NCBI GenBank assembly: GCA_009746045.1
Contig: RPFO01002275.1
Span: 85,511-149,510 of the forward strand
DNA length: 64,000 bases
Reading direction: 5' to 3'
From: Mesostigma viride
Taxonomy: Eukaryota > Streptophyta > Mesostigmatophyceae > Mesostigmatales > Mesostigmataceae
Part shown: positions 1 to 62,163 of the stretch, one piece after another
How the letters are laid out: each line of letters starts with the position of its first letter
How positions within the stretch are numbered: position 1 is the stretch's first letter
Translations under genes and position numbers: made by a program
Notes under the pieces: generated by a model
The model's input: the letters and a program-made list of their open reading frames with translations, nothing else
What the model was told of the DNA's origin: nothing
The model's database searches: none

Positions 1-1425
1 GGCAACCCCCGAACCGCCCGACCCCACGCTAGCGGGACCGCCCTTGGAAGGTGGCAACCCAGCTTCCGGCGAAAGGGAGCGAGTAGGTTGATCAGGCCCA
101 CCCCCCTCCCTCACCCCCCCTGCAGCCCCGGGATCCCCCGCCTCACCCCCAGCCTGCACACTGGGGTCCCTAACACCTTCCTCAGCGGGTGGGTCTGGCG
201 GCCCCAGCCCGTCATAGTAGGGGCGCAGGTGTTTCCACGCTAGCAGCTTGTCGTAGCAACTGTCCTCTAGCGCTACCGAAGCAAGCATGTGATCAGGATC
301 GATCTCCTTGACCACACCGGGACCTCTCCATAGGCCCCGTTTTCCATGACTGCCCTCCGCGTAGGCCCAGACCCTGGCGTTCACGCACGGCACATAAACC
401 TGTCCACGTCGCAGGTCCATCTTTACCATGCGCACGTAACGATCGCTCAAATAATCCCTGTACTCTTCCACAGCCTCAGGTGACAACAAGCCCATCTCCA
501 CTCCCTTAGGCGTGACTGCCACCTGCCCACCCAACACCTTGACCATTACACGGTTGTTGAGACATTGCTCTATCTCATTGCAGATCACCAGCCTCTCACG
601 ATACGAGCCTGTTCTCATCTTCTCCATGCATGCCATCACCTGCTTCGATGTCTGTATGTGGCGCTCGACAAGACCCTGGTGCTCGTGGTCAGCTACCCCA
701 GCAAGTTCTATCTTCCCCACACCCGGCTCACCCACACAGCACTCAAACTGCTGATCGCACTCCAACACAGATGCCACACCAAACTTGGACCTGAGGAGAC
801 GCAATGCATCACACAAGTGCTCCTTCAGCTTGCGCTCAAGTGGCACCATGACCTTGTACCTGGAGAACCTGCCCACTGCAAGCACGTAGTCTCTGTCGTC
901 ATACATGAATACATCACACTGCACCACACCTCGCTCAAACTCTGGCCTACGTGCATGGAACTTGTGCGGTTTAGGTGCCCGCTCCTGACATTTGCGACAC
1001 CTTAACCACACCTGCTTGCACATATCCACTAAGTCTGTGAACCCTAGCATGGCTGCCCACTCCTCACCCGCATGCCCATGCCCTAGTGCTTTGTGTAACC
1101 GTGTGGCCATGTTAAGTACACTGAGCGACCCGGCTGCCTCACCGCACGCCGCACCATTCACATGTGCTGAACTAGGGTCTGGTGAGGTACCACCTACCGG
1201 CGGCCCGCCCGCTGCGGTGTGCCCCCCTGCAGCGCCTCCAACCCACTCATTCCCCATCCCCTGAGACACTGCCCTTCCCCCTTCTGCAGCTGTCCCATGC
1301 TCCAGGTGGCCCCCCTTCTCCCTAGTGCCTGCTAGCACCGCCACCTGAGCACCCAGGTAGGGTGAGTACACCTGGGGGGTCGAGCTGGCCTCCCCTGCAC
1401 CAGCCCGCATGCCAACCTCACCTAG
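1..1425 (-). CDS. Family D pol, integrase part, runs off the left edge
   Basis: Reading the minus strand from the codon after the gag UGA, the frame is open without a stop to base 1, so the 3' end is outside the window. Domains in order: a Pro/Gly/Ala-rich linker; the pre-integrase HHCC zinc site (LHKALGHGHAGE, then CRKC, about 1130-990); the integrase core with catalytic Asp in VVQCDVF (about 920), second Asp in LECDQQF (about 755) and Glu in LVERHIQ (about 680); a C-terminal GPY-like stretch GKRGLWRGPGVV (about 340-300); then a Pro/Gly-rich tail. The family catalyses insertion of the cDNA. No protease lies between gag and integrase. It could start at the in-frame ATG at 1410, but readthrough from gag is more likely because the frame is shared. 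Confidence 0.85.
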
Positions 1426-9782: not shown

Positions 9783-10895
9783 CCTTTGCCACAAGGTAGT
9801 CCAAGTCAGTAGTAGTGGCCCTCTCGTTCTTGATAAAAGAGACCACGGGCTTATTATCACAATAAACCCTGACATCAATCACAGGTTGAGGTCTTATCTG
9901 ACTCAGACACCATAAGAGTAGCTCTCTTATGTATATGGCATCGCGAATGCACATGGCGTATGCCCTGCACTCAGCGGTGTCAATGCCAGCAAACCGCCTT
10001 CTCTGAAGGTTACTGGACCAGTATACCAACGAGGGCTGTTTGCCTTCATTCCTGATGGTGATCAGGCATCCGGCTCTGGCACCAATCTTGTTGGCAGATC
10101 TAGACTCTTGGCTAGCATCTGTATAGGCGTCTATGATGATACGCCCATGCCAGTCTACACCGGACAACACCAAGTCAGGAGATTCATTGAGGCAGCTCTC
10201 CAGGCGCCTCCTTCCTTCTCCTACAACAACAGAGTCTGGCATCCTACTCTGTACTGCCAGGTCAGGGTTAGTTGTGGCAGCCAGCCAACCCAATTGACCT
10301 TTAACCGTAGGGGCATTCTCCTCAGTTACTCTCTTGGGCAACTGAGTTATCACTTTTTCTTTATACCCCTTCGCCGATTGCAGCTTAAGATGCCATCCTT
10401 TGTCATCTTGGAAAAGGGTACAGCCAATGCCACAGTAAGGTACCTGGCTGTTTTTAGTAAACCATGCTCTGGTACCAATAGGGGACTTGTCATTGAGCCT
10501 TTTATAGGTCTCATTCAACCATCCCTTGGGACCAATGCGTTGCATGTCATCTCCATGTAAGGTAGCCCAGGTGGGTTGTCCCTTGGATTGCCCCACAAAG
10601 AGACAATAAGCAAGATGAGATTGTTGCATCTGACATCTCTCCTGGATGGCAGGAGCAATGGTTTCATACCAGATGACTGGACTGCTGACCAGTCCTTCCC
10701 AGCCCACTTTAGGCTGCATGTAGGGATGACCTACTTCAGCTATCCAGCATGCCAGCTGGGGTCTTGACACAACAGGGTCTTTGAGATTGCCAAGTGGCTC
10801 TGGCCACCTGAGGATCACCATGCAAAAAGGCCCTGGTGAAGTCATCAACTTCTGCTCCATAATCCAAGCCATAGTCCAAAGCACCAAGGTACAGA
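9783..10895 (-). pseudogene. B1 pol, second part: RT and RNase H, cut by F
   Basis: Minus-strand continuation of B1 pol in a different frame from 10896-13586. It contains RT motif A (VDDFTRAFLHGD), the HGDD box (10546-10557, TLHGDDMQ) and RNase H with DAYTDASQESR, TAECRA, CDNKPV and DLDYLVAKE. The frame break at about 10935 is caused by four extra bases (TCGATC where B2 has TC). A second small difference lies near 10868. The last approximately 40 residues, including NPADAMTK, are lost where the F LTR joins at 9783. Confidence 0.85.
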
Positions 10896-13624
10896 CTAAG
10901 AATAAGCCTGAGAACAGGATGTGACAGGCCAGGATCGAGTGTACAGCTCCTCCTTATCAAAGTCTGTAGTACCATGGAACTGGGTTACGACTGGACGTGC
11001 GTTTGGTATGGGAGGCTCACCAAGCTTGCTCTTCATCTTGCATACAAAACGCAACTGAAGCATTTGAGCATTGGGTGGAGGTTCTGAAATGCCTTCAAAA
11101 ACATCCAGCGTTTGCCACTCCTGGAGCGCACGCACCAATGCTAGTCGCCAGGCCTCAAGGCCAGCGAAAGTGTGACAATCCAGGTCTACATCATCAAAGG
11201 ACATAGGGCTATGAGCAGCAAATGACCTTTTTGTGAGACCAAGAGAAGTCACACTGAGCTGGGCAGGTTCTACCAGCTCAGAAGCTGGGGGTATATCCCT
11301 TCCCCATTCTGCTCCTTTTACTGAACCGACACAGGCGGTCTTCCAATTTGCCTTCTGGAACATTTCAAGAGGCAAGAGACATCTGAATGATTCCAGAGGA
11401 ATTGGGTCACAATGGGTTTTTAGGAGACTCTTTGTGTTATTGGGGCCATCAACGATGGTAACACCGGGAGTCACCAAGAATGGCTGGCCAATGAGAGTGG
11501 GCCCCTTATAGCCATCAACAACACAAAGTGTCAAAGACTCACCCAAGAATGGGATAGTGATATTCCCAAGAACTTGATGATCAGTGTTACCCGCAAAGTC
11601 TTGGACAATAGTCCATGGACTGGGTTCAAGGGAATACTTATTCAGCAAAGCATTAAAGGGCGAGGTGACAGAGACCTCTGCTTTGGTATCCACATCAAAG
11701 CCATCAAGGTCCTTGCCCTTCTCTAGAAGAGAAGTTATTTTGGCAATCTTTAGTGAGGGCTTGAGCTTCTTTACAATATCCCGAAGCTCTTGAGGATTGC
11801 CTCTCTTGCCGAGCTGAGTGTTCAACCTGGACAACCCCTCCTCAGCTTGTCTTCCTTGGGCTGGTATTTTCCCATCAGTCTCCAAGGGCAATGGCTTATT
11901 ACCAGGGTAATTGAATCCAAGCTTTGGCTGTTCAGACTGAAATATGTTATCCACCTGCCCAGGGGTCTCAAGCCCATGTTCCAACGGCCGGAGCTTCCGG
12001 TGCTGATCAGACACCCTATTATCCAACAAGTCAGCTTCATCCATATCATCCTGTGATATCCCAGTCAATGTCTTAGGCTGAGCTTGCTGAGTAGTAGGCT
12101 CCAGTTGATGGGAGGCCGCCCTTTCTGGTAGTTGGAGTCCAGCCTGTTCACTGGCCAAAGGTGGACAGGAAAGATTGGGAGATCCAAATGCCTCTCCAGG
12201 GGCCATATTTACCAGGGGATTTTCTTGAACGTTCATTGGATCTCTCTTCAATCTATTCCAAGCCAGATGATAAGTGGTACCATTCCAGACCACATCAGCA
12301 GTTTTCATCTCCAGGTCAACTGAGGTTATGGTCCCTGGACCCTGCCAATAACCACGTTTACCAGGAGCATTTTCTTTGTGGAAGATCACCTGGTCTCCCA
12401 CCTTAAATTTTAATGATTCTCCTCTCTGTTTATCCTTTTCACAGAGATGAGCATACTGTGCCCACCTCTGCTTACTCCATGCCTGCATGATGTCATCAGG
12501 GTAGAGGCCACCTGCTAGTCCACGAGGTGTGACCAGCCATGGAACACCACGCACTTTGAAAGTATGAAGACGGTTGTTCATGGTGTTTTCCACTTTTGCA
12601 GCACCCAAACACCTGACAGCAAAAGTTGGTTTAAACATCTCAGGATAATCCCCGGACATTACCAACTTCTTAAGCTCCTGTATATATCTGTCAACCTTGC
12701 CTTGGGCTTGGTGATCTTCACGACCCACAATCCTTAGGAAAGGCAGATCAGAGTATTTGGTCAGGCAGTTAAACTGCAAGTCCATCTGCAGCTTGTGAAT
12801 GACTGCAAACTTCTGCAGAATAACAAGAACAGCGGCATGGAGGGTATTCTCATCCCCTGCTGCCATAGGTTCAATTCCAATGTAGCCTGACCATTCATCC
12901 ACAGCCACCAAGTAAGGCAATTGCCTGTAATTGGTGAAGTAGAGGATATCAGCTTGTAGATTTCCCCTACCATCTGCAGGATGCTTTGCATGACGTTTGG
13001 AAGGCTTGTTAGCACACAATTGGCACACACAATGTTCTCTGACATCTTGATAAGCCTGCCAGAGAGCATTGTTATTAATGGCTTGAACAAGCCTAATGGC
13101 ATTGTTTCCATGGCCACAGGCATCATGCAAACTCTTAGCCAGAGTCCTAAGATTAATACAATCATTAGGCTCAGGCTCTTCAGGACATGGACGGGCGTCC
13201 ACGTTCCTGGCAGAGCAAGAGTCCAAGTTTTTATTATCAATATAACAAGGATTATTGCTCTGAGGAGCTTGACTGTTAACAATATCAATGGGTGCTTGGC
13301 TACAATCAGGAGCTGCACCACATGTATTGTTCACAGATACGTTGCTCACCTGGGCAACACCATGTGGCATCTGTCTACAACCAGGAGCAGATCCACATGT
13401 ATTATTTACAGAAAGAGTTCCCTCTGGGGTACTCTTTTCATTCCAGGCATGGATAGAAATGCCACAAACAGGGGCACTTTTACTGCTGCTCACTGGGGCA
13501 GCTTTACGGTCAGTAGGGGTTACTGCTGGAGCCCCTACCACCTGGCAGCCCTCATCTGCCATGAAACCACTCTCATCAACGTCCATGAGGACGCTGTAGG
13601 GGTTATATAAACAGAGAGGATCAT
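10896..13624 (-). CDS. B1 pol, first part: integrase, protease-like domain, RT start
   Basis: Open from the -1 frame that overlaps the end of gag; the first ATG is at 13586 (896 codons). Order of domains: Ser/Cys/Asn-rich linker with repeated VNNTCG; HHCC zinc site (LHDACGHGNN ... CVCQLC); integrase core (Asp in QADILYF, Asp in QMDLQFNC, third acidic position less clear in QAQGKVDRYIQ); GPY-like C-terminus (GKRGYWQGPGTI); protease-like domain with VDTKAEVSV (DTK at 11682-11690) and LIGQPFL; then the N-terminal RT region. The protease-like domain therefore follows integrase, not gag. Cleavage by it is inferred from the family, not shown. Confidence 0.82.
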
Positions 13625-13634
13625 CTAGTTTTTC
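13625..13634 (-). promoter_or_regulatory. Candidate -1 frameshift site, G AAA AAC UAG
   Basis: In the gag frame the last codons are CAG AAA AAC UAG. A -1 slip reads GAA AAA CUA GAU and continues open into pol. The same sequence is kept in B2 (51976-51985). A downstream pseudoknot was not tested. Confidence 0.55.
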
Positions 13635-14842
13635 TGCTGCTGCTTCCTCTTGCGGCCATGAGAGTTATTGCCACCCCGCGGCTGAGAAGCATCACCACCA
13701 CGCGGCTGAGAAGCGTCACCACCACGAAGGGCACCGCTCTTGACGGCTTGGGAGATCTGCTGCAGCAGCTTGAGGACCTCCATCTGGGTATCCTTGGCTC
13801 CAGCGCCAGCCTTACTCCTGCAGGCAGACGCAACATGACCAGAATTGCCACAAGACTTGCACTTGCGAGAGTAGCAATCCTTAGCCAGATGGTTAGTCCT
13901 ATTACAGAAAGTGCAGGGAGGGAAGGACTCAGAATTAGCGACAACCTTACCCTTACATGCGCGGCGTGTGTGCCCGGGCTGCCCGCAGTTGTAGCAGAAG
14001 ATTTCCCGTTGCTGCTCCATCACCATGGCGACACGAGGCACCTCCGCGGCACCTCCTTCTCTGGAAACACGGGTTTGGTTCGTCAGGAGCTCCTTGAGGT
14101 GAGCTCTGCATCGGTGAGTGTCGCTCAGGTAACCGCGGCAGTTGGCGACTAAATTCCGCTTCTCGGACTCGGATAATGCACAGTTTTGGATCCAGCGGAG
14201 ATTCACCGCCTCGTCAGGCCACCGGAGCCCCTGCTTCTCCAGCGTATCATAGTAAGAGTTGAGGTGCTCGATGATGGTCTGCCCGGGCTTTGGCTTTGCA
14301 TCTACAAATTCCTCGATCTCGTCGCAGGTTTTGGTAGTGACAGAACGAAGAAAAGTCTCTCTTGCTCGGCGCAGAAACTCGAATGGCGACCACCGCAGAC
14401 GCTGTGCGCGGTCCAGCAACGAAATCCACTCTGGGTGGTTCTTTTCGCGGTCTCCCAGCGGAGTTCCGCGAAGAAACTCCAGCCAGTCCGGAATGATGTC
14501 TCGGTTGCCCGCGAGCCTGCGGAAAAACGGCCCCAGCGAGGCTACAAAGCGATCCCGGTCTGCTTGAATAGCACTAGGTACCAGCGGGGCTGGAACCCAC
14601 TTCTTGATTGCCGACAACAGCTTCGCCTCCTGAAGTAAGGTCTCCCGCCGAAGCACCTTATCACGCGCACGCTGGTTGTCACTACTAGTACTTCCCTGCC
14701 CGCAGCCCTCCTCCCGGGGCTGGTCGGACATATCTTTATTGTCATCCCTGTGCTCGCCTGGGCCAGGGTATACAGAAATCTGAGCCGGTCCGTGCTCACC
14801 AGGGCCAGACCTCGTCTCTGAAAGATCGTCGTCCAAAGACAT
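13625..14842 (-). CDS. B1 Gag
   Basis: 405 residues from MSLDDDLSE; a longer frame starting upstream would begin inside the LTR, so this ATG is preferred. The body is a copia-type capsid region (IPDWLEFLRG, ERRARETFLR-like helices, then IEHLNSYYDTLEKQGLRWPDEAV). Three zinc knuckles follow: CYNCGQPGHTRRAC, CTFCNRTNHLAKDC and CKSCGNSGHVASAC. The C-terminus has GGDASQPR repeats and a basic tail. The UAG stop is overlapped by the pol frame at a slippery site. No frameshift is seen, and B2 has a homologous but broken copy. Confidence 0.87.
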   Translation of the reverse strand: MSLDDDLSETRSGPGEHGPAQISVYPGPGEHRDDNKDMSDQPREEGCGQGSTSSDNQRARDKVLRRETLLQEAKLLSAIKKWVPAPLVPSAIQADRDRFVASLGPFFRRLAGNRDIIPDWLEFLRGTPLGDREKNHPEWISLLDRAQRLRWSPFEFLRRARETFLRSVTTKTCDEIEEFVDAKPKPGQTIIEHLNSYYDTLEKQGLRWPDEAVNLRWIQNCALSESEKRNLVANCRGYLSDTHRCRAHLKELLTNQTRVSREGGAAEVPRVAMVMEQQREIFCYNCGQPGHTRRACKGKVVANSESFPPCTFCNRTNHLAKDCYSRKCKSCGNSGHVASACRSKAGAGAKDTQMEVLKLLQQISQAVKSGALRGGDASQPRGGDASQPRGGNNSHGRKRKQQQKN

Positions 14843-14855
14843 CGAAATGAATACA

Positions 14856-15132
14856 AGTTGCAAATAAATGGAATGCGATGTAAAACAGAAAGCATGAAAT
14901 GAACGTTGCGTTTATTGTTCTCGTACGTTATTGTCGTCGTTGCATAATTCGTCTTCGTTGCGCATAAGAACCTGTTGCGCTTGGCACCTTCATCAGTCTT
15001 GCTGAATATCCTACGTGGACATGCATTCCATGTAGTTCAGTGCATGCCGCGTGTTAGATACTTCTAGAATCCTCTAGGAGGTACCAAGGCAGATGCGCAT
15101 ACATGATAGGCCGATAGTCGGCTCAGTCCTCT
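14856..15132 (-). repeat. B1 5' LTR, inner half
   Basis: Reading minus, it ends GCAACT just before the gag leader. It matches the B LTRs at 37742, 39392 and 56294, and stops at CCTCT where A1 was inserted; the other half is at 37220-37428. Confidence 0.82.
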
Positions 15133-22785: not shown

Positions 22786-24630
22786 TAACAACGTGGCCGC
22801 AGACGCGCCCTCCCAACCGGCGGCGCGTGCATCTCAGGGAGATTCGCGGCATCTGTTTCTTTTCAGTGGGGGTTGTTGGTCCCTCCCACCGTCCTTGATC
22901 CGTATTTGAAGGAGAAAACGATCATGGACGTGAAGTTCCTGGTGGACACCGGCGCCTCCACGTCCTTCATCAACGAGGCCCTGGTGCGTCGGCTGGGCCT
23001 GGTACCCCGGCCTCACACCACGGCAGTCTATGTCACCTACTCAGACGGTCGGCGACACCAATCGCCGGGCCTAGCAGACATCAAGGGTGTGCTGCAGGGC
23101 ACGCCGGTGGACCTGGTGGCGACTATTGCGCCGCTGGGCGCTGCCGACATCATCATTGGCGTGGACTGGCTGGACAAGCAGGATGTGGACATCAGTGTGC
23201 GCCGGCGGGTAGTTTGGTTTCCGGATGGTTCATTCTGGTGCCCTGACAGCGAGTATAGGGCACAGGCCGCGGAGGTCCATAACATTACACACGAGCGCTC
23301 GGCGGACGGGCCTCGACCAGCGTCCCAGATCCTGATGAGCAGCAAGACGCTGGCGCGCCAGCTTCGGAAGGGCAAGGAGTACGCGATGTATCGCATAGAC
23401 CTGGATAGCACTCAGGCTCTGCTTAACGAGATCGGTGCCGGATTCACACCGGATGAGCTGGCGCGGTTCAATGCCGTCCTGGAGAAGCGCACTACCCTTT
23501 TTGCGGATCGCACCCCCAGTTCCCTCCCAATCGATCGGTGTTGCACCGTGTCCAGCTCCAGGAGGGTTCTGGGCCTACTGTGTCTCCCATGTACCGCATG
23601 GGCCCAGTCGAGCTGGTGGAGCTCAAGAAGATCCTCATTTCACTGCTTGACGCTGGGCTCATTGAACCCAGCAACAGCCCCTTCTCAGCGGGCGTGCTGC
23701 TCGTTCCCAAGCCAGGAGGCAAGTGGCGTCTGGTGACGGATTACCGGAAGCTGAACGCCATCACCGTCAAGTCCCGGTATCCTCTACCGCGGATCGACGA
23801 CATCTTCAACCGTGTCCAGGGGGCCACGTGTTTCACCGTCATCGACTGTGCGGACGGGTTTTGGCAGCTGCGCATCGCGCCAGAAGACTGCCACAAGACC
23901 GCGTTCGCTACGCCCTTCGGCACTATCAGTTTCGGGTGGCGGCAATGGGGCTGTGCAATTCGCCGGCGTCCTTCCAGATGCTGATGAATGATATCCTCCG
24001 TCCGGTGATGGGTACAGCCCACTTGCCACAGGTCTCCCAGGACCTGGCGGACCCGCAGAAGGGGGCGCCCGCCCTGGACCTACAAGCGCACGTGCGCGCT
24101 GGCGTATCTGGACGACATCCTGGTGTACTCCAAGACGTTCGAGGAGCACCTAGAGGATGTGGACGCCGTGCTTCAGATCATGGAGGATGAGCACCTTTCG
24201 GCGCGGAAAGCCAAGGTGCGCGCCGGCCGCTGCGTGCCGTTTCTGGGCCATACCTTGTCCGCGACGGCATCGCGACCGACCCGGAGAAGATCGAGTCCGT
24301 CCAGCAATGGCCTGTCCCTACGGACGTGAAGGGGGTGCGCAGCTTCCTGGGCTTGGCTTCTTACTACCGACGGTTCATCCCACGGTTTGCCACCATCGCC
24401 GCCCCGATCAACGCTCTTCTCAAGAAGGGTACCCCGTTCCTCTGGGCTGAGCAGTGCCAACAGGCTTTTGAGGCGCTTAAGCGCCACCTCACCACAGCAC
24501 CAGTCCTTATCCTGCCGGACCCGGCCCTTCCTTTCGTTGTGGCTACGGACGCCAGCAAGGTGGCCATCGGGGGGTCCTCCTGCAGGACCAAGGCAAGGGT
24601 CTTCAGCCCATCGAGTATATCTCACGCACA
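22786..24630 (+). pseudogene. G Pol: protease and RT, frameshifted
   Basis: The protease has the canonical active site DTGA (22945-22956, in FLVDTGASTSFI) and IIIGVDWL. RT begins in the same frame but shifts near 23540. It shows VPKPGGKWRLVTDYRKLN, FTVIDCADGFWQ (first catalytic Asp), MGLCNSPASFQ and YLDD (24105-24116). Thumb and connection follow (FLGLASYYRRFIP; TPFLWAEQCQQAFEALK), then the start of RNase H (VATDASK). At least four 1-2 base indels break the frame. It stands in contrast to the copia-like families here: protease before RT, DTG intact and Y-x-DD RT. Confidence 0.87.
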
Positions 24631-29390: not shown

Positions 29391-29611
29391 AGTGGTTAGA
29401 ATAGTTTTTCGTGACGGATAGCGGATTGATCCAGTCACCATTGGAGTCTTACTACTACGTCAGAGTTGGGCCTGTGTATCAACTTCTAGAGGAACTGGCA
29501 TTACTAACCTGTGGGTGAACCGAGGTTGGGACATAGTACTCTTATAGTAGCGTTGTTTTTCCAAATTTACCTTGTACGGTAGGGACTACCGACCCCCATG
29601 GGGGGGAGGAG
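29391..29611 (+). other. G 3' untranslated region with polypurine tract
   Basis: Short AT-rich segment ending atggggggaggag directly before the 3' LTR. Confidence 0.8.
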
Positions 29612-30201: not shown

Positions 30202-31196
30202 CACCACGGTCCCACGTACGCTAGAGAGCCTGCTAGAGAGCGGGGGATATCCAAGTAGATATACAGCACATGCGTGGTTTCGGTATCTGTTGGTGGGGGT
30301 GGATAGGTTCAGCCGGTATGGGCTGTTGACCATCCTGCCTGGCATGGATGAGCATCACTTGTTGTTGGGTCTCCAGTCTTTGTTGCCATGCTTTGGGGTG
30401 TACACCTTGGTGCAAGCTGACTTGCAGTTTGACTGCTTGAGAAAGCATGCTGATCAGCTTCCGTGTAAGCTGGTAGTGGTCCCTAGAGAGAGTCATGGGC
30501 AGCAGGGGCTGTAGAGAGATCTATCCGTGAGGTAAAGACAGTGGTGCTAGCAGCAAAGACTGTGCCAGTGGTAGCATCTGCTTTGGAAAAGGCAGCCTGG
30601 TGCAAGGGGATTGAGGAACAGCTTAACCACAGGGTAAACTATTACTATGATGGTGTGGCAGTCTCTCCCTTATAGCAGCGCAGTTCGGGTTGTTGTCCCC
30701 AGAGGTAGTGGGTGCCTGCCTGAGAAAGGCAGATAGAGTGTTTGCTCGGCTGAGGCGCAAGGGCAAGGGCTGGAAAAATGCTGAGGCCCCTTGTGGGAAT
30801 GGGGGTCAGGATGTGGAAGGAGCCATCAATACCAGGCAAGCGTGGCAAGTGGCAAGATGGGCTGGTAACCCAGTTGGATGAGGCCAACCATTCTTGTCTG
30901 GTAGCCTTGGACAAGGATCCTAGGCGCGTGTACAGGTTGTCCTGGGCTCATATCCGAGAGAAAAGGCCAAGTGCAATCTGGCCTGTAGACGGCCCTGAGC
31001 CTCCCTTGGAGGTTGAGGCTCAGGAGGAGAGCCAGGCAGTAGATGCTAACCCTCCATGCTTGGATGATGGTCTATCCTGGATGGACGAGGGTGAGCTGGA
31101 ATCTGCTGCATCAACTGTCACAATTAGGCCAGTAGGGGGCCAGGGCTGGACCAAAGCCCAAGGGGCTCCTCATGGCGGATCGACGTCATCCGGGCA
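30202..31196 (+). pseudogene. A1 integrase core and C-terminus
   Basis: Resumes the A1 pol frame after G. Integrase signs: VGVDRFSRYGLL, second Asp in VQADLQFDC, Glu in AVERSIREVK (a one-base loss at about 30510 puts it in another frame), and the GPY-like C-terminus GKRGKWQDG. A second break near 30671 is an extra TA (cttaTAgcagcg). The tail before the protease is acidic and Ser/Ala-rich. The frame that appears to start at 30173 begins inside the G LTR and is chimeric. Confidence 0.75.
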
Positions 31197-31968
31197 TTGA
31201 TGAGCGGCAAGCGTGATCCCAAGGTATCTAAGCTCACGGGGTGGGGGTCATGCTGGGCAGCAACATTAGAGGTGGATACCAACTCGCAGGTGTCCATTCT
31301 GAGGGCTGAGGATGCTGCAAGGTTGCAGATGTCTGTAGCCGGTTGCCCAGCCGTGTCTGATTTCTCGAGGAATGTGTCCATGAAAGTTCTGGGGGAGGTG
31401 AGTGTGCCTATTCTGGGGGTGCCCACTGTGTTCTGTGTGGTAGAGGGCTATGAGGGTCCAGCCATACTGGGGCAGAATTTCTTATGCCAGCCGGGGGTGA
31501 CGATAACCTCTGAGGAATTGGCACTAGAAGGGCAGGGTAGTTTACCCCTCCAGAGATATCGCTACTCCCAGGGACTTAGTGTGGCTGTAAGGGCTGTGAA
31601 GGGTGTTGCAGTGGAGGGGCATGATTCTAAGGAGCCCATTGCTCAGGACCTGCTGATCCTCCCTACTACGTTTGACCCACGCCAGTTGGGGGTGCAGAGG
31701 TACCAGATCCCTGGAACGAGTCCTGTACCTTGGCGCAAGCTAGTGGAGATGATGCAAAGCCCCAAGCTGGCTAAGGCATGGACTCCTGGCTTCGTTGCTT
31801 CTGGGCATGAGTGGATGATTGCCAACTGTGCAGAGCCTGTAGAGGTCCTCCCTGAGGATCACCAGCTGCTCAGATTGATGTTTGTCCTCAAGCTCAAACA
31901 GGTAGATGGTGTCGAGGTGCCACATGTCAGACCAATTGCAACCGAGTACCATGGCACTATAGACAGAT
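31197..31968 (+). CDS. A1 protease-like domain and RT N-terminus
   Basis: One open frame of 257 codons. A retropepsin-like pattern is seen: LEVDTNSQVSIL (DTN at 31275-31283), then VPILGVPTVFCVVEGYEGPAILGQNFL. The position after DT is Asn where retropepsins have Gly. It lies after integrase and before RT. The following residues (EDHQLLRLMFVLKLKQVDG, RPIATEYHGT) align with the start of RT in A4, B and E. The frame ends prematurely before motif A. Confidence 0.72.
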
Positions 31969-41035: not shown

Positions 41036-41822
41036 TGTCAGAAATTTTCATTTAATTCCTTGGTCGTCAAGACTGATTGAGACAATTGATAATCAGTTAA
41101 TTCATTGCATATTTAGGTTACGGACTGCCACCGTTTCACCGCCAAAGCCATGGTGCGGTTCCCGGGTGGGGACCATAGCATCCATAGCCACACTGGGCTC
41201 GGACTGCAAGGTAAGTGCAACGTAGGTGTGTCACTTCCTTATCAAGGCACATTGGGGCAGCGGTGCATGTTCTAGAATATTCTGCACAAGTTGCCAGCTG
41301 TCGATTATACAATTGACGATTAGGAGAACGCCAGATGTCAAGCAACTAACACGGCATACAATGCATCTAGAACTGGATTCAGTCATACGAAGTATCCAAC
41401 ACGGAATATTCGGCCGAGGATAGTACCGTCGGCACCTAAGGTACGCAAAGTATTGTGCCAGAATTACAACTTCGGCACTACATAACTTTTGCTATACTGC
41501 ACTGGATTCAGTGCTATAAGTTGTGCCGGAAAGCTCACGGCGGGCCCTACCAAGCCTATTTAATTATCGGCCAGAAAGACGGCAGGCGGGTGCGATTAGG
41601 GACGCAACCCTAATACCTCCGTTTACAACATGATGGCCAGACACTACAAATGTAAACAGGCAGTTGGGCACACAGGGTGAAATTCACCTCTGACACCCCC
41701 CTTGCACAATGCCTAAAGTGAAGGCACTACGCAGGTAGGGCAAACAGTCTCTCCCCCCTCAATTCAGGCAAGCTAGGGCCTAAAAGCTAGGTAGGGCAGC
41801 CAGGTATAAACATACTCTGACA
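41036..41822. repeat. Small element, LTR copy 1
   Basis: TGTCAG ... CTGACA. Carries the extra CTAG at about 41771. Confidence 0.9.
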
Positions 41823-42595
41823 CCCCCCTTACATGGCTAGCCCGTCAAAACAGTGCTACCATTGCTATCAGCACGGGGAAGAAAACACATTGCTCGTGGC
41901 AAGGGCCACGGCCAAACCATTCCTGGAAAAACGCAGCATAAAAGTTGATGTCGTCTTGGATGCATTGCCGAACTTGGCTCGATGAAGCAGCAAAGAATTC
42001 TTGGTCTTGGTGGAGTAGCACTTTGATCGTGCAGGTGGTAATGGCGGCGATACTCGGTGCAAAAAGTTGCTCCCGGCCTGAACGCCTGCTCTCGGTCTGA
42101 TCCCCTCGTTTTTGCATTGGGCATCTGCGTGGACTATGCACGTCTTATTAATCCCGCGATGAACGTCCGGTCAGCCGACCACATATTACTCCCCATACTG
42201 GCATAGGCCAGTGACAGGTTCCGGCACGAAATTCGCAGCTCCACGCTGCGTTGCCCGAAAAAATACCAAAAAATTAGCTTGCGACATCGCCGGCCGCAGG
42301 ATTTGAACCTGAGCTCATTAGATGGCTCCGGCTTCAACCAACGACGCCTGACGACATGTGAAATATTCCGGAAATTGTTTTATATAAACTTCCGCGACTG
42401 AGTCCAGACGCGACTGGTTCCAGGAAACGCGCTGGCCAGCAGGACTTCAACAAGACGCCTGACCAGCAAATATTACGCGACTCACGGCCGCGAACTTCCG
42501 AACCATAATAATGCATGAAATACATTACGTCTCTCGCCATTTTCAGGCGGGTCTCGCTAATTGACGTCCATAGGGTGAATTCTGTAATGGCTTTG

Positions 42596-43378
42596 TGTCA
42601 GAAATTTTCATTTAATTCCTTGGTCGTCAAGACTGATTGAGACAATTGATAATCAGTTAATTCATTGCATATTTAGGTTACGGACTGCCACCGTTTCACC
42701 GCCAAAGCCATGGTGCGGTTCCCGGGTGGGGACCATAGCATCCATAGCCACACTGGGCTCGGACTGCAAGGTAAGTGCAACGTAGGTGTGTCACTTCCTT
42801 ATCAAGGCACATTGGGGCAGCGGTGCATGTTCTAGAATATTCTGCACAAGTTGCCAGCTGTCGATTATACAATTGACGATTAGGAGAACGCCAGATGTCA
42901 AGCAACTAACACGGCATACAATGCATCTAGAACTGGATTCAGTCATACGAAGTATCCAACACGGAATATTCGGCCGAGGATAGTACCGTCGGCACCTAAG
43001 GTACGCAAAGTATTGTGCCGGAATTACAACTTCGGCACTACATAACTTTTGCTATACTGCACTGGATTCAGTGCTATAAGTTGTGCCGGAAAGCTCACGG
43101 CGGGCCCTACCAAGCCTATTTAATTATCGGCCAGAAAGACGGCAGGCGGGTGCGATTAGGGACGCAACCCTAATACCTCCGTTTACAACATGATGGCCAG
43201 ACACTACAAATGTAAACAGGCAGTTGGGCACACAGGGTGAAATTCACCTCTGACACCCCCCTTGCACAATGCCTAAAGTGAAGACACTACGCAGGTAGGG
43301 CAAACAGTCTCTCCCCCCTCAATTCAGGCAAGGGCCTAAAAGCTAGGTAGGGCAGCCAGGTATAAACATACTCTGACA
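42596..43378. repeat. Small element, LTR copy 2
   Basis: TGTCAG ... CTGACA, lacking the CTAG. Confidence 0.9.
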
Positions 43379-43461: not shown

Positions 43462-43869
43462 AGTTAGCTGAGATACCTCGAGGCTGACTTGTGGCCGGAG
43501 CCACACAGGGGAACATACAGTGTGACCGGAGTTATTCTGGCGGAGACAGAATAACGGTGCCGAGCGCCGGTTGTGGCGCGACGCACACACGTGTACGCAA
43601 GTTACGTAGCTAGCAACTAGTCTAGTGGACGTTGTGCGTAGTAACGTTGCTCCAGGTCTAGAAGCCTCTAGAACCTGGACACGTGGCGGACAAGTGAGCG
43701 TAGTCCAGTTGTCCTAGGGATCTCGTGTGAGTGATGTGTCCACGACATATAATGTGTGCCCACATATGGAGTGAATAATGACAAGGAACGCCCGATCCCT
43801 GGCGTTGCTGCAGCCATCATTCTCACACTGAGTCCCCAACGTCTCCGACGTACATCTATATATCTAACT
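43462..43869 (+). repeat. E 5' LTR
   Basis: 408 bp. Contains acatataatgtg and a TCTAGAAGCCTCTAGA palindrome (about 43657). ttggattagac follows the LTR, and the first ATG of ORF1 is only 10 bases downstream. Confidence 0.92.
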
Positions 43870-45580: not shown

Positions 45581-46600
45581 GTGCAGCAGACAAGCTCATC
45601 TAGCAGTGAGGATAGTGATGTTTCTCTCACCCCTACCTTTGAGCAATGGGAGGCAGCTAGGGCACGCAAGAGGCAGGCACAGAGTCAGGGTGTGCAGGGG
45701 GGCATGGACATGTCATCTTCACCAGCACATGTTGTGCAGGCACCTAACCCCCCAGTGCAACCAGCCACGCGTAGCAGGCCCTCACAGGTCTCACCTAGCA
45801 TCCCACACACTGCCAATGCTGCTACATCCCCAGGCAGGTCTTCTTCTCCCTCTCCCTCTTCACCCTCTCAGGACTGGCCAGTATATAACGAGCATAGGCC
45901 AATTGACAGGATTATGGTGAGGGGGCTGCCAGAGGGGTATACTAGGCAGCAGGGTGCTCAGCTTCTTCTCTCTCTCAAGCTGCTAGGGAGGAGCTGAATA
46001 TCAAGAACTGGTTTGGGGCACTCATGCAGGGTGATTTCTTCCACCAATCCAATCCCTCCATCCAGCACTTGGTATCCATATATCAGCAAAGATATCCCAG
46101 GTGGCAGGATACACAGGGTAGGGAGCCATGGGAGAATTTTCTGCGTGATCTGCATGACCTGCTGTCTGCTCCCACCACTGTTGACATGTACTCTGCGTTT
46201 AACTGGGTGAAAACCTATAAGGTAGAAACTCAGAACTATGTAGCAGAGATCAAGAAGTGGGAACTTGCAGTGAAGGCCCACCCCGAGGTTAGCAAGCTAG
46301 ATCACAAGTGGCTTGTTCATTCCCTGCTCGAGAAGCTTAACCTTGATCGTAACACCTTTGCCATGATCACCACAGGCTTGGCCACCCATTGGGAGTCGAT
46401 GAAAGAGGCTCTCGATTATGTTAAGTTAGCCCTGGGTCCACTGTGTCAGGACTCAGCCCCTCCCCCCTCTACCTCTTCCCCCCCTGCTGTCAAGCGGGCC
46501 GGGGGGAGGAATCAGATGAGGAGGGTAAGGCCAGGAAGGCCAAGGACAAGCGTCCTGTGACGCTAGGGGAGGTGAAGACTCTTATGAGTCAGTTTGTTAA
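45581..46600 (+). pseudogene. E Gag, two frame breaks
   Basis: Ser-rich N-terminus (MQQTSSSSSEDSD), then in the next frame the capsid-like region (IKNWFGALMQGDFF ... WLVHSLLEKLNLDRNTFAM ... ALDYVKLAL). The second break, at a run of six G near 46505, leads into the frame that carries the Lys/Gly repeat and zinc knuckle. The two breaks could be sequence errors, since the LTRs show no change. Confidence 0.7.
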
Positions 46601-47957
46601 GAGCCTCAAGGGCAAGGGCAAGGGCAAGGGCAAGGGCAAGGGCAAGGGGCAGGGGAAGGGGAAGGGTAGGTCATCCCCCCCAGGGGGGAACGCTAACAAG
46701 TCTTCTGGGGCTGGGTCCTCCACCCCCAAGAAGGATGTGAAATGTGTGCGTTGTGGGCGTCGTGGACACAGCAAGGACAAGTGCCACAAACACAAGGAGC
46801 ACCTGCCGCACCTGGAGGTGCTCTGCCACAAGTGCCTGGGACCGCCTCACGGGGACCCCGCCAAGTGCACCAAGGAGCCGTGGCAGCCCCCTAAATGTAA
46901 GTCCTCACACCCTCACACGTGTCATGATGAGTCGTGTCCCCTACACCACCCAATATCCAGCTCCACTGCCCAGGCAGGGACACAGGATGGGAGGATGTTG
47001 ACAGGATGTCAAGTTAACTCTGTTACCTCTCACTCTCCACCTTCATGCTCAGCTGTCAAGGCTGTAAGCAAGGTTGGCAAAGTGTTGAAGTATTACACAG
47101 AAACCTCTGACAGTGAACCCAGGTTCACCTCCTTGATACCCAAGGTGTCCAGGGTCATGACCCAAGCTCTTAGTAACATCAGTTATGAGGAGCTGGCATT
47201 GCAACTGCACTTACTGTATGGTCATGAGACATGTGCAGAGGTGGTAGCAGCTGCATTGGGAGGTACGGCACTCAGGAAGGCATGTCAGCTGATCAGAAAA
47301 CACTGTCAGCACTGCCAAATGTATGCACCTAAACCACCCAAGTGGCATGTAGCTACACCACCTAAGTGCAAGGGCAGAGTGGTCGGGGATGTGTTCCATA
47401 TTAAGGGACAGCCCTATCTGGCGTTAAAGGACGCATGGTCCAGGTACACAGCAATAGAACCTCTCCCTGGTATGGACAAGTCTCAGTTGCATAGAGCTAT
47501 ATTAATAGCACAAGCCAGGTACTACCCAGTAGAAGCACTGCTGTTAGATCAGCAATTTAGTTGCCTTGCTGGGGCAGAGGGCTGTGAAGCTATAGACCTG
47601 GCTGGGCTAGAAGATCATGAGAGACAAGGTATCATTGAGAGGGCAATTAGGTCTATCAAAACCTTGGTAGCCAAAGAAGGTGAGAACCTGTTAGCTGACA
47701 GTGGGTCATACGCTGATAGGGCACTGTGGGCTACTAAGATATGCCAGATACTCAATAGACGACCACTCCTGCAGACACCCTATGGTATTATCACACCAGA
47801 TGGGTTACAGGCTGGGATATACCCACCTGAGGTACTAGCTGTGTACAATGCACAGCGTGCCCACGCTGCCAGCAGATTGGCAGCCAAGGATGCCAAGCAT
47901 CCACGCCCTCCTTCAAGGAAGGGGACACAGTTCTCTTCTATAAGGAGTCAGGGCTAG
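46443..47957 (+). CDS. E nucleocapsid and integrase
   Basis: 504-codon frame. In order: a (GK)n tract coded by a ggcaag repeat (46611-46660); zinc knuckle CVRCGRRGHSKDKC; a Cys/His-rich stretch (CHKCLG, CHDESCPLHH); the pre-integrase HHCC site (LHLLYGHE, CQHC); the integrase core with Asp in GDVFHIKG, Asp in LLLDQQFSC and Glu in GIIERAIRSIK; and LNRRPLLQTPYG. Gag and integrase share one frame here, with no protease between them. The frame breaks near 47915, just before the GPY-like C-terminus. Confidence 0.83.
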   Translation: MSGLSPSPLYLFPPCCQAGRGEESDEEGKARKAKDKRPVTLGEVKTLMSQFVKSLKGKGKGKGKGKGKGQGKGKGRSSPPGGNANKSSGAGSSTPKKDVKCVRCGRRGHSKDKCHKHKEHLPHLEVLCHKCLGPPHGDPAKCTKEPWQPPKCKSSHPHTCHDESCPLHHPISSSTAQAGTQDGRMLTGCQVNSVTSHSPPSCSAVKAVSKVGKVLKYYTETSDSEPRFTSLIPKVSRVMTQALSNISYEELALQLHLLYGHETCAEVVAAALGGTALRKACQLIRKHCQHCQMYAPKPPKWHVATPPKCKGRVVGDVFHIKGQPYLALKDAWSRYTAIEPLPGMDKSQLHRAILIAQARYYPVEALLLDQQFSCLAGAEGCEAIDLAGLEDHERQGIIERAIRSIKTLVAKEGENLLADSGSYADRALWATKICQILNRRPLLQTPYGIITPDGLQAGIYPPEVLAVYNAQRAHAASRLAAKDAKHPRPPSRKGTQFSSIRSQG

Positions 47958-48995
47958 GGAAGGTTGGGACATGGTTAGGCCCAGCCACTATCCTTAAGTT
48001 TTCCAGCACAGGCAAGACTGTGCATGTGAAACACAATGACACTGGGCATGTGCACAAGTGCTCACCTCACAGGATTAAATTGTATTACACTCCACTGTCA
48101 GACGTGGCAGAGGAGGAAGAGCTGATGGTCGACAGCTCAGTACAGTTGCCTGGTATATCTGGAGTACCCAGTGAGTGGTTGTTTGGAACACACACTGGTG
48201 AGTGTGATAGCCACAACACATGTGCACCCCAGGTCACCCTCAGTGAGCCTAGCCAGCCACAGCAGGTTAGACCACCTGTCAACGAGGGCACTAACCAAGA
48301 AGGTGGTCAGCAAGACAGCACACCTTCAGCGGTACCAGCTCAACCCATACCTACCGTGTCCAAACATGGGCTAGCAGAAGCGGTCCGCATACTGCAAGCA
48401 GCGCATAGAGCCAAAGCTCACACTGCTGCAGGGTCAGCCAAAGTGAGTAGGGCAGGTCACAGCGACAACAATCCAGCTCTAGTCGCGGTTGACACCCAAG
48501 CTCAGGTTAGCATCATCAGTGCATTGGCTGTACCACACCTAGAGTTAGAGCCTTCCCCTTGGCAACGGGTGGCTGATTTCTCTGGGCAGGCTAGCTTGAC
48601 TGTTAAAGGTCAGGTTACCTTAAACATTCTTGGTATCCCCACACCTTTTCAGGTACTGGAAGGATACACAGGAAATGCTTTGTTGGGTGATCCATTTATT
48701 TCTTACCCAGGTGTCACCATCTCTTGTGATAGGCTTGAGGTACAGGGCCTGGGTGGGGTGTCACTTGATCATTTTCAGGTACCACTCCAGACTTTGGTTG
48801 ACACACAGCCAGCCACTGTCAAATTTGTTGCACCTAAGTATGCACCTGGGCACGAGCCACGTGTGGCAGATTTGGTGCACAGTCAGAAACTGCACCCCAA
48901 AGCATTTGGATTGGGAAAGTATGATGTTGCAAAAATGTCTCCCCTCTCCTATGACAGATTGTCCAGGACTGTCAAACTCAGGAAGGTTTCACTAA
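47930..48995 (+). CDS. E integrase C-terminus and protease-like domain
   Basis: The frame open from about 47930 begins GDTVLFYKESGLGKVGTWLG, the GPY-like end of integrase. An acidic linker follows, then a retropepsin-like domain: ALVAVDTQAQVSIISAL (DTQ at 48491-48499), TVKGQVTLNILGIPTPFQVL and ALLGDPFI. As in A and B it sits after integrase, and the residue after DT is not Gly. A one-base break near 48965 separates it from RT. Confidence 0.78.
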
Positions 48996-50538
48996 GTGGG
49001 TTGAAGCTTTTAGAAAGGCTATGGATGAATGGGTGGTTCCAGATCCACGTAGTCCCACCCACACACCTCCAGTCACTCCCTTAGAGCGTAAGCCCAACGG
49101 GAGCAAGCACCTAAGACTTAAGTTCGTGTGCAAGCACAAGCAAGCAGCAGATGGCTCTGTCATTTTCCATGCTAGGCCTTGTGTGACTGAGTTTAAGGGA
49201 TCCACTGATTTGACAGAGGCAGATCTGTATACACCTGGCATTCAGCAAACTTCTCTTAAAATTTTGCTGTCTGTTTTTCTAGGGCACATCAATCAAGGTG
49301 ATGATTATGTGTGCAAAGCCACTGACATTAAACGTGCATTTCTGAAAGGCTCACCTGAAATAGCTGAGCAAGTTTGGCATGGGAAGGTGTATGTGGTCAA
49401 CACACCTCAGGTGTGGTCTAAGGATATCCCACAACCATTTCTGAAAGCCAACATAGGAGTGGAAGGTCTGCAATCTGCTCCTAGAATTTTCAGAATGTCA
49501 GCTCAAGCTGTGTTTGAGAAGCTAGGTGCTCGGTATGATGACATAGACCCTTGCTTCTTTGTTGTCCCTCACCCTCATGGCATGATCATGTTTGTGTGGC
49601 ATGGGGATGATCAGCTTATTGCTGGGCCTAGGCAGGCTGTGGATGATTTTATTGCCAACGTGTCTAAGTCTTTTGAGATTGGCAAGCAGCTAGAGCTGGG
49701 CACCATTGCTATTAAGTTCTGTGGCACAATGTTGCAGCTTCAGAAGCAAGCAGATCAGTGGGTCTGTGCAATGTACTCTCCATCAGATTACATGCACAGT
49801 TGTAAGGAAGTGCTGCAGACTAAAATCAAACCTTGTGACTGTCCCACCATTAGGGGCAAGCTGGGGTGGTTGTGTTCTACTTGTGCACCACACTTGGCAG
49901 TAGTCAGCAGGGTTGATGATGCAGTTCTTATGCAGGTAGGCCACAAGGCTATCAACAAGCTCCTGCAGGCTGGTCCACCCCTTATCTTGCATTCCCTGGA
50001 ACTCTTTAAGCCCATTCACATTCAGGCTATAATGGACAGTTCCATGGAATCACGGCAGATTACTCAACTGCAGGCTAGGGAGGCTGGCTTATTTTTTGTA
50101 CAAAATGCTGACCAACCCATGTCACTCATCTCATGGTATAGCAGGCTACATAGGCGTAAAGCTGTTAGTAGCAATGCTGCTGAGTGCAGGGCAGTTGTGT
50201 CAGCTGTGCTACATGCCAGGTATCTCAATCATGTCCTGGTTTGGTTACAGAAGCAAGCAGGCAGTCAGGCTGGGGTGGTGGCTCACTTGCACACCGACAG
50301 TCAATCTCTCCTCAGTTTCCTTGACAACCCTTATGCTGTGCATACTGATTTGGACTGGGTGATCCTGAAACAGGAGTGCACCTACTGGGAGTCTACCAAT
50401 CATGTGCCGGACAAGGCCAACGCCGCGGATGCGTTGACCAAGGTGCCCCAGCTAGCACCTGAGCAGTACCAACTGCTCTATCACATGATGAACCCCTACG
50501 GCAAGCAGGCCAGCCTGCCCCCGCCGGTAGACACCTAG
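48965..50538 (+). CDS. E RT and RNase H
   Basis: Open frame (505 codons from 49021; upstream codons FTKWVEAFRKAMDEW belong to it). RT: LRLKFVCKHKQAADG, motif A ATDIKRAFLKG, GVEGLQSAPRIF, catalytic box HGDD (49600-49611, FVWHGDDQLI), KFCGTMLQL. RNase H: IMDSSMESRQ, AAECRAV, HTDSQSL and LDWVIL, ending NAADALTKV. No stop or shift, so the enzyme looks intact. It makes and matures the cDNA in the particle. Confidence 0.88.
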
Positions 50539-51557: not shown

Positions 51558-51965
51558 AGTTAGCTGAGATACCTCGAGGCTGACTTGTGGCCGGAGCCAC
51601 ACAGGGGAACATACAGTGTGACCGGAGTTATTCTGGCGGAGACAGAATAACGGTGCCGAGCGCCGGTTGTGGCGCGACGCACACACGTGTACGCAAGTTA
51701 CGTAGCTAGCAACTAGTCTAGTGGACGTTGTGCGTAGTAACGTTGCTCCAGGTCTAGAAGCCTCTAGAACCTGGACACGTGGCGGACAAGTGAGCGTAGT
51801 CCAGTTGTCCTAGGGATCTCGTGTGAGTGATGTGTCCACGACATATAATGTGTGCCCACATATGGAGTGAATAATGACAAGGAACGCCCGATCCCTGGCG
51901 TTGCTGCAGCCATCATTCTCACACTGAGTCCCCAACGTCTCCGACGTACATCTATATATCTAACT
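51558..51965 (+). repeat. E 3' LTR
   Basis: 408 bp, no difference seen from the 5' copy. Confidence 0.92.
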
Positions 51966-51985: not shown

Positions 51986-54900
51986 ATGATCCTCTCTGTT
52001 TATATAACCCCTACAGCGTCCTTATGGACGTTGATGAGAGTGGTTTTATGGCAGAAGAGGCCTGCCAGGTGGTAGGGGCTCCATGCAGCAGTAACTCCTA
52101 CTGACCGTAAAGCTGCCCCAGTGAGCAGCAGTAAAAGTGCCCCTGTTTGTGGCATTCCTATCCATGCCTGGAATAAAAAGAGTACCCCAGAGGGAACTCT
52201 TTCTGTAAACAATACATGTGGATCTGCTCCTGTTTGTAGACAGATGCCACACAGTGTTGTCAATGCAGGTGCCCAAGTGAGCAACATATCTGTGAACAAT
52301 ACATGTGGTGCAGCTCCTGCTTGTAGCCAAGCACCCATTGATATTGTTAACAGTCAAGCTCCTCAGAGCAATAATCCTTGTTATATTGATAATAAAAACT
52401 TGGACTCTTGCTCTGCCAGGAACGTGGATGCCCGTCCATGTCCTGAAGAGCCATCACCTGATGATTGTATTAATCTTAGGATTTTGGCTAAGAGTTTGCA
52501 TGATGCCTGTGGCCATGGAAACAACTGGCTTGTTCAAGCCATTAATAACAAGGCTCTCTGGCACGCTTATCAAGATGTCAGAGAACACTGTGTGTGCCAA
52601 TTGTGTGCTAACAAGCCTTCCAAACGTCATATGTGCAAAGCATCCTGCAGATGGTAGTAGGGGTAATCTACAAGCTGATATCCTCTACTTCACCAATTAC
52701 AGGCAATTGCCTTACTTGGTGGCTGTGGATGAATGGTCAGGCTACATTGGAATTGAACCTATGGCAGCAGAGGATGAGAATACCCTCCATGCCGCTGTTC
52801 TTGTTATTCTGCAGAAGTTTGCAGTCATTCACAAGCTGCAGATGGACTTGCAGTTTAACTGCCTGACCAAATACTCTGATCTGCCTTTCCTAAGGATTGT
52901 GGGTCGTGAAGATCATCAAGCCCAAGCCGGCAACAAGGTTGACAGATATATACAGGAGCTTAAGAAGTTGGTAATGTCTGGGGATTATCCTGAGATGTTT
53001 AAACCAACTTTTGCTGTCAGGTGTTTGGGTGCTGCAAAAGTGGAAAACACCATGAACAACCGTCTTCATACTTTCAAAGTGCGTGGTGTTCCATGGCTGG
53101 TCTCACCTCGTGGACTAGCAGGTGGCCTCTACCCTGATGACATAATGCAGGCATGGAGTAAGCAGAGGTGGGCACAGTATGCTCATCTCTGTGAAAAGGA
53201 TAAACAGAGAGGAGAATCGTTAAAATTTAAGGTGGGAGACCAGGTGATCTTCCACAAAGAAAATGCTCCTGGTAAACGCGGTTATTGGCAGGGTCCAGGG
53301 ACCATAACCTCAGTTGACCCGGAGATGAAAACTGCTGATGTGGTCTGGAATGGTACCACTTATCATCTGGCTTGGAATAGATTGAAGAGAGATCCAATGA
53401 ACGTTCAATTTAATGAAGAAAATCCCCTGGTAAATATGGCCCCTGGAGAGGCACTTGGATCTCCCAATCTTTCCTGTCCACCTTTGGCCAGTGAACAGGC
53501 TGGACTCCAACTACCAGAAAGGGCGGCCTCCCATCAACTGGAGCCTACTACTCAGCAAGCTCAGCCTAAGACATTGACTGGGATATCACAAGATGATATA
53601 TTTGAAGCTGACTTGTTGGTTAATAGGGTGTCTGATCAGCACCGGAAGCTCCGGCCGTTGGAACATGGGCTTGAGACCCCTGGGCAGGTGGATAACATAT
53701 TTCAGTACGTCTGAACAGCCAAAGCTTGGATTCAATTACCCTGGTAATAAGCCATTGCCCTTGGAGACTGATGGGAAAATACCAGCCCAAGGAAGACAGG
53801 CTGAGGAGGGGTTGTCCAGATTGAACACTCAGCTCGGCAAGAGGGGCAATCCTCAAGAGCTTTCGGGATATTGTAAAGAAGCTCAATTATCAAGCCTTCA
53901 CTAAAGATTGCCAAAATAACTTCTCTTCTAGAGAAGGGCATGGACCTTGATGGCTTTGATGTGGATACCAAAGCAGAGGTCTCTGTCACCTCACCCTTTA
54001 ATGCTTTGCTGGATAAGTATTCCCTTGAACCCAGTCCATGGACTAATGTCCAAGACTTTGCGGGTAACACTAATCATCAAGTTCTTGGGAATATATCACT
54101 ATCCCATTCTTGGGCGAGTCTTTGACACTTTGTGTTGTTGATGGCTACAAGGGGCCCACTCTCATTGGCCAGCCATTCTTGGTGACTCCCGGTGTTACCA
54201 TTGTTGATGGCCCAATAACACAAAGAGTCTCCTAAAAACCCATTGTGACCCAATTCCTCTGGAATCATTCAGATGTTCCTTGCCTCTTGAAATATTCCAG
54301 AAGGCACATTGGAAGACCGCCTGTGTCGGTTCAGTAATAAAAGGAGCAGAATGGGGAAGGGATATGCCCCCAGCTTCTGAGCTGGTAGAACCTGCCCAGC
54401 TCAGTGTGACTTCTCTTGCATGGTCTCACAAAAAGGTCATTTGCTGCTCATAGCCCTATGTCCTTTGATGATGTAGACCTGGATTGTCACACTTTCGCTG
54501 GCCTTGAGGCCTGGCGACTAGCATTGGCGCGTGCGCTCCAGGAGTGCAAACGCTGGATGTTTTGAAGGCATTTCAGAACCTCCACCCAATGCTCATGTGC
54601 TTCAGTTGCGTTTTGTATGCAAGATGAAGAGCAGGCTGAATGAGCCTCCTATACCAAACGCACGTCCAGTCGTAACCCAGTTCCATGGTACTACAGACTT
54701 TGATAAGGAGGAGCTGTATACTCCTGGCCTGTCACATCCTGTTCTCAGGCTTATTCTTAGTCTATACCTTGGTGCTTTGGATTATGGCTTGGATTATTAT
54801 GGAGCAGAAGTTGATGACTTCACCAGGGCCTTTTTGCATGGTGATCCTCAGGTGGCCAGAGCCACTTGGCAATCTCAAAGACCCTGTTGTGTCAAGACCC

Positions 54901-61706: not shown

Positions 61707-62163
61707 AGCAACTGTCACAAGGCCAGAGGGGACGGGGCAGCCACCTAAGGCCCGGGGGCCTCTCATGGCGGACGTCACCGAAGCACTCATGCGCAGCAAA
61801 CATGATCCCAAGGTATCCAAGCTCACGGGGTGGGGGTCGTGCTGGGCGGCTACAATGGAGGTAGATACCAACTCACAGGTGTCTGTCATCAGGGAAGAGG
61901 ATGCTGTAGGCTTACAGATGTCCCATCCCAGTTGCCTTGCTGTGTCTGATTTCTCAGGAAAGGTGTCCATGAAGATCCTTGGGGAAGTGAGTGTGCCTAT
62001 CTTAGGGGTGCCCACCACGTTCTGTGTGGTAGAGGGCTATAAGGGCCTGCCATTCTGGGACAGAACTTCTTGTGCATGCCAGGGGTTACTTTGACCTCTG
62101 ATGAGTTGCACTAGAAGGCAGGGGCAGCCTCCCCCTTGAAAGATATCACTATTCCAGGGTCTT
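61707..62163 (+). pseudogene. A4 protease-like domain
   Basis: MEVDTNSQVSVIREEDA (DTN at 61864-61872), ILGEVSVPILGVPTTFCVVE, then a one-base shift just before the ILGQNFL-like motif. It lies downstream of integrase as in the other families. The Gly of the DTG signature is Asn. Whether it cuts the polyprotein is unknown. Confidence 0.72.

Follow-up and report, generated by a model that had tools for sequence, protein, structure and literature searches.

The position of the integrase (IN) is a main character by which long terminal repeat (LTR) retroelements are sorted. According to the sections of Llorens et al. (2009; PMC2774666) drawn on here, int lies downstream of the protease (PR) gene pr in all known Ty1/Copia genomes, Ty1/Copia integrases are without the GPY/F module, and the PRs of this group, a very few excepted, all carry an LLS motif. 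The same sections list five states for the integrase position, and gag-INT-PR-RT (RT, reverse transcriptase) is not among them. Here, we describe LTR retrotransposons with the order GAG-IN-PR-like-RT-RNase H (RNH) from a 64,000-nucleotide stretch of DNA, the window (contig C1336:85511-149510, from a 440-Mb assembly). Families A, B, D, and E of the window are best read as a distinct mosaic lineage, which combines this order with copia-type RT and RNH and is missing, in the copies read, the glycine of the protease motif DTG.

Element E of the window is a complete LTR retrotransposon insertion, with two LTRs, a target-site duplication, and gag plus pol through RNH. Its LTRs of about 408 bp are 100% identical at the two ends (409 matching bases) and are flanked on both sides by the 5-bp duplication AGCAG; their termini read AGTTAG...CTAACT instead of the usual TG...CA. 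The CCHC zinc knuckle is followed by the HHCC motif and catalytic core of the integrase, the integrase C-terminal module, a PR-like domain, RT, and RNH, in this order (Table 1). Families A, B, and E share this PR-like domain, with the motifs VDT-x-(A/S)-x-V-(S/C) and (L/I)(L/I)G-x-(P/N)F, between the integrase C terminus and RT. The original prediction, made from the sequence of the window, had placed a retropepsin-like signature there in the three families, and the motifs were found where it had put them. Within the window, tblastn matched the A1 domain to those of B1 (E value, 5e-29) and E (1e-23), so that the domain is homologous between the families and not a chance motif. When nine rows from A, B, D, E, and subfamily E2 were aligned, the invariant columns included V-D-T, D-F, G-Y-x-G, and an L-G near the middle of the domain. 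The C-terminal (L/I)(L/I)G, an ILG-type motif, was present in eight of the nine rows (the A4 row ends before it) and reads LLG in E, ILG in A and D, and LIG in B. Overall, the domains of A, B, and D are 36 to 42% identical to that of E.

The order was then followed through the genome. A search with the E domain gave 4501 candidates, of which 150 were scored; 56 of the scored rows had 95 to 100% identity (window copy included), and 94 had 73 to 77% identity and constitute subfamily E2. Eighteen of these rows, 4 from E and 14 from E2, were taken with their flanks, picked for spread and partly for long frames. The integrase C terminus, PR-like domain, and RT followed each other in that order in all 18 copies, and an upstream match to the integrase core was found in 17. 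A gag-like tblastn match was obtained in 17 of the 18 regions, in place upstream of IN in 16 of them; copy L043 had no match, and that of L048 was on the opposite strand. Frames were examined in seven genomic copies, and each copy had HHCC, the DDE glutamate, VDTQ, and HGDD in this order within a single frame, 1369 to 2121 residues long and free of stops. The RNH motif ADALTK was reached in five of these frames, and three ran from the gag motif through the RNH end motif. One E2 copy (L043:4-2740) also carries about 900 residues of Gln-Gly and then Lys-Gly repeats in frame upstream of the zinc knuckle.

For A and B, the order was read from the window copies. Searches with their domains (150 rows scored for each, from 4565 and 4242 candidates, respectively) returned rows at 35 to 47% identity, which point to further families. 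In the B search, 71 of the 150 scored rows shared one score at 99% identity, and 46 of the 71 lay in 1344-residue open frames; this abundance argues for recent mobility. The third acidic residue of the B1 integrase is D rather than E (12678-12695, minus strand), even though copies of the B type occur in very large numbers.

If the order is a trait of the lineage, a PR-like domain is expected in family D just outside the window, where the D integrase runs to the edge. Reading 5.1 kb beyond the edge, we found the domain after IN in the continuing frame (LEVDTDAVVCLL...AILGLPFL), followed in another frame by RT with HGDD and RNH with ADALTK (one D copy). At least four families therefore share the order. 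Nested insertions abound in the window, with E lying within B2 and a Ty3-type element within A1, and this speaks for an order produced by nested or rearranged copies. The constancy of the order in the 18 genomic E-like copies, the seven frames that run through, and its successful prediction in D make such an artifact extremely improbable; for E it is already refuted, and for D one copy speaks against it. These results support GAG-IN-PR-like-RT-RNH as a lineage trait of A, B, D, E, and E2; the proposal that an order shared by diverged families is such a trait was thus borne out by additional genomic copies and extended to a fourth family.

Thirteen open frames of E, E2, B1, D, A1, and A4 contained no D[ST]G motif between the zinc knuckle and IN; the motif occurred in the E and E2 frames alone, twice in each and both times inside the integrase. 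When the window copies A1, A4, B1, B2, D, and E were scanned in three frames, from gag to the PR-like domain or beyond, eight D[ST]G motifs were found: two in the E integrase and six in other frames or beside stops. The claim that no PR lies between the gag zinc knuckles and integrase, and that no true DTG protease would be found there, therefore agrees with the copies scanned. It also stands for D, to which the off-window reading adds a domain after IN. A motif scan of the sampled loci gave no canonical copia protease of this genome with which to compare the PR-like domain.

The glycine of DTG is absent from every copy read. VDTQ occurs in E and in all 16 E and E2 loci translated, and the residue after DT is N in A1 and A4, K in B1 and B2, and D in D. 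The copies thus have DTQ, DTN, DTK, or DTD in place of the catalytic D-[ST]-G; the Ty3-type protease in the window reads VDTG. The predicted signature DTxxxVS is present where claimed, in the copies read as DT-x and never as DTG. Selection was assessed by the Nei-Gojobori method on one pair, E (copy L040) and E2 (copy L052). The ratios of nonsynonymous to synonymous substitution (dN/dS), which are rough because dS is near saturation, were 0.092 for the PR-like domain, 0.082 for RT, 0.086 for RNH, and 0.050 for IN (85% identical, in frame), against 0.456 for the spacer between IN and the PR-like domain and 0.404 for that between the zinc knuckle and IN (49% identity). The E-type PR-like domain is under purifying selection about as strong as that on RT.

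Several comparisons indicate that the PR-like domain very probably descends from a retropepsin. E (0.036) and A1 (0.069), two independent families, each had their best Pfam match in gag-asp_proteas, which six of eight rows scanned also hit (best, 0.033), all below the cut-off. The first four hits of a PDB profile search with the nine rows were retroviral-like aspartic protease 1 (E value, about 0.2), and their alignment stayed in register between VD(S/T) and the C-terminal G. In a ranking of 261 window pieces and shuffles, the Ty3-type protease of the window came first after ten pieces of the lineage's own families, in an alignment of 85 columns with DTG opposite DTQ (score, 23.7, versus 17.6 for the best of 60 shuffles).

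Other results weigh against this descent. No Pfam match of the domain reached the cut-off, the D and B1 domains, each alone, had none at all, and one of the eight rows matched the unrelated TAP35_44 at 0.046, comparable to the protease matches. The E domain alone found no retropepsin in the PDB, and an unrelated kinase (0.31) stood next behind the protease rows of the profile search. The hhalign probability to the Ty3 protease was 5.8 to 9.1% (P = 0.0066 and 0.0036), and two E RT pieces, at 22.4 and 22.2, scored near the protease itself. Two structure predictions had predicted local distance difference test (pLDDT) scores of 38.1 and 42.5, below usable confidence, most likely because the alignment was shallow, and a fold search with the better low-confidence model gave no retropepsin. 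The subthreshold matches, the failure of D and B1 in Pfam, and the poor models are what would be seen if an unrelated domain lay N-terminal to RT and merely resembled a protease in its DT and LG motifs. We consider this improbable, as the same register emerged from two queries of Pfam, from the profile search of the PDB, and from the comparison with the Ty3 protease of the window. The identification of the domain as a protease is therefore tentative at most, with weak, concordant retropepsin matches and no active-site glycine in the copies read; the Pfam comparison suggested for it favored gag-asp_proteas for E and A1 and came out below the cut-off throughout, with B1 and D unmatched.

The RT and RNH are of the copia type. 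Pfam RVT_2 was matched by the RT of E (1.2e-10), E2 (3.5e-10), and D (1.1e-8), and the B1 RT frame had no RVT_2 match. Profiles of RT (P = 2.3e-8) and RNH (P = 3.5e-8) matched a canonical copia from this genome, and neither matched pieces of the one Ty3-type element in the window above shuffles. The integrase C terminus aligned with the Ty3 GPY/F region at 28.4 (best of 25 shuffles, 18.6). On this moderate support, a Ty3-type GPY/F module at the integrase C terminus is suggested, if weakly. The integrase core matched neither copia nor Ty3 integrase above shuffles, a result that counts against the mosaic reading; these integrase comparisons are weak because single sequences served as targets. 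The E2 relative matched Pfam rve below the cut-off (E value, 0.0037). We also considered HGDD in RT (E, E2, B1, D, and two A copies; AGDD in A4) as a special trait and set it aside as minor because the genome's canonical copia carries HVDD.

We lean toward a mosaic lineage GAG-IN-PR*-RT-RNH, in which the PR-like domain, here named PR*, would be a retained and catalytically degenerate retropepsin. Degeneracy is preferred because the active-site glycine is lost and because in PAG-1 even its replacement by alanine has been argued, in the cited part of an in silico study (PMC3335542), to be inactivating through displacement of the catalytic water. The main rival, to our minds rather unlikely, is an active noncanonical retropepsin in which D and T would suffice, the third residue being free, and which would dimerize inside the particle to cut the polyprotein as usual. 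What keeps it alive is the invariance of D and T, both across the nine aligned rows, despite the divergence of A, B, and D from E, and across the 16 E and E2 loci translated; such constancy exceeds what a relic with a purely structural role would require and tells against degeneracy. Strong purifying selection on PR* and the lack of any other in-frame protease motif outside IN in the copies scanned favor activity too, as does the textbook rule, found in the portion of PMC6317226 cited, that cleavage is performed by the element's own protease. That the glycine has given way to four residues, Q, N, K, or D depending on the family, is difficult to reconcile with activity, as is the alanine argument, although PAG-1 is a bilobal relative and not a retropepsin.

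If PR* is degenerate, it would no longer cleave like a normal retropepsin and may be kept beside the RT N terminus as a folding or dimerization module of the RT-RNH part. The polyprotein might then be matured by a host protease or be functional with little cleavage, and the element would otherwise move by ordinary reverse transcription and integration. More tentatively, these families could stand apart from other LTR retrotransposons as a lineage of high rank, with copia-type RT-RNH and Ty3-type IN and PR, whose protease turned into a noncatalytic RT-attached domain and which would therefore multiply with no retropepsin of its own. A dead PR* would make these numerous elements a natural test of LTR retrotransposon life without an own protease, and a live one would redefine the minimal retropepsin active site. 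In either case, pipelines based on domain order could misfile or drop the lineage.

The lineage is abundant in one organism, which is photosynthetic, judging by the 33 matches in its assembly to proteins of the chlorophyll a/b-binding family. No relatives were found in the collections viral_contigs, plasmids, and genome_contigs, which include few eukaryotes and therefore say little on distribution. Among open-licence PMC papers, a search for the order IN-PR-RT found none, whereas one for the canonical order did find papers; the titles and abstract openings of those listed in further searches on these elements contained no description of the order, and an earlier description elsewhere is possible.

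Nested LTR elements crowd the whole window (Table 1), and every window copy is frame-broken at some point. The Ty3-type element at 18592-30196, with 585-bp LTRs (TGTTACGTCC...GGGACGTAACA) and a TCACC duplication, is apparently inserted within A1, between gag (from about 17065) and integrase (from 30197). Inside the B2 gag, at 41036-43378, lies a short element that has a GTGGT duplication and LTRs of about 785 bp with little sequence separating them; this copy of B2 also carries the E insertion, farther along.

Table 1. Coordinates of lineage domains and of the Ty3-type control within the window (position 1 is the first nucleotide)
Feature	Position	Strand	Basis or motif
E 5' LTR	43462..43869	+	AGTTAG...CTAACT ends; AGCAG target-site duplication just before
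E gag-like region	45902..46557	+	Open frames, motif positions; two frames in window copy
E CCHC zinc knuckle	46734..46784	+	Motif
E integrase	47205..47957	+	HHCC, 47205-47318; D-x52-D-x29-E core, catalytic motifs at 47379, 47538, 47628
E integrase C-terminal GPY/F-like module	47918..48118	+	Profile match to in-window Ty3 integrase C terminus
E PR-like domain	48440..48790	+	VDTQAQVSII, 48488-48517; ALLGDPF, 48677-48697
E reverse transcriptase	49105..49800	+	HGDD at 49600; Pfam RVT_2
E RNase H	50029..50442	+	Ends ADALTK; lineage profile matches copia RNH
E 3' LTR	51558..51965	+	AGCAG just after
A1 integrase remains and C terminus (approximate)	30290..31075	+	Open frames, tblastn; upstream of PR-like domain
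A1 PR-like domain	31218..31571	+	VDTNSQVSIL, 31272-31301; AILGQNFL, 31461-31484
A4 PR-like domain	61807..62072	+	VDTNSQVSV, 61861-61887; frame-broken copy
B1 gag, three zinc knuckles	13628..14911	-	Pfam zf-CCHC, 1.1e-11
B1 integrase	12333..13130	-	HHCC, D-x55-D-x29-D, GPY/F-like module
B1 PR-like domain	11391..11744	-	VDTKAEVSV, 11667-11693; TLIGQPF, 11478-11498
B1 reverse transcriptase (approximate)	10240..11180	-	HGDD, 10537-10560; tblastn to E RT, E value 1.3e-60
B2 PR-like domain	53955..54202	+	Frame-broken, two frames; after IN, before RT
D integrase	1..1425	-	Open to window edge; PR-like domain and RT off-window, C1336:80500-85600
Ty3-type protease, in-window control	22789..23733	+	VDTG, before RT; Pfam gag-asp_proteas, 8.7e-10

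Compared with described systems, the lineage resembles Ty1/copia in its RT, which matches RVT_2, in RT and RNH profiles that match copia, and in having RNH last. It differs in that the PR-like domain follows IN instead of preceding it, the integrase has a GPY/F-like module, the C-terminal protease motif is of the ILG type and not LLS, and there is no in-frame protease DTG or DSG. Because three copia characters (int after pr, no GPY/F, and LLS) are not found, we do not file the lineage as Ty1/copia, despite its copia-like RT and RNH. It shares with Ty3/gypsy the GPY/F-like integrase C terminus, the ILG-type motif, and a PR-like domain directly before RT; however, IN lies upstream of this domain, whereas in most Ty3/gypsy elements int is downstream of rh, and the RT and RNH do not match the Ty3 pieces of the window. 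Gmr1-type Ty3/gypsy elements, as presented in the cited sections of PMC2774666, are a precedent for IN upstream of RT, but their IN follows PR, whereas that of the lineage precedes the PR-like domain, and the RT type differs. The closest parallel to the altered active site is the catalytically dead aspartic protease PAG-1, in which, according to the cited part of PMC3335542, the active-site glycine is substituted and the fold is kept; PAG-1 is, however, a bilobal pepsin-type protein and not a domain of a retroelement.

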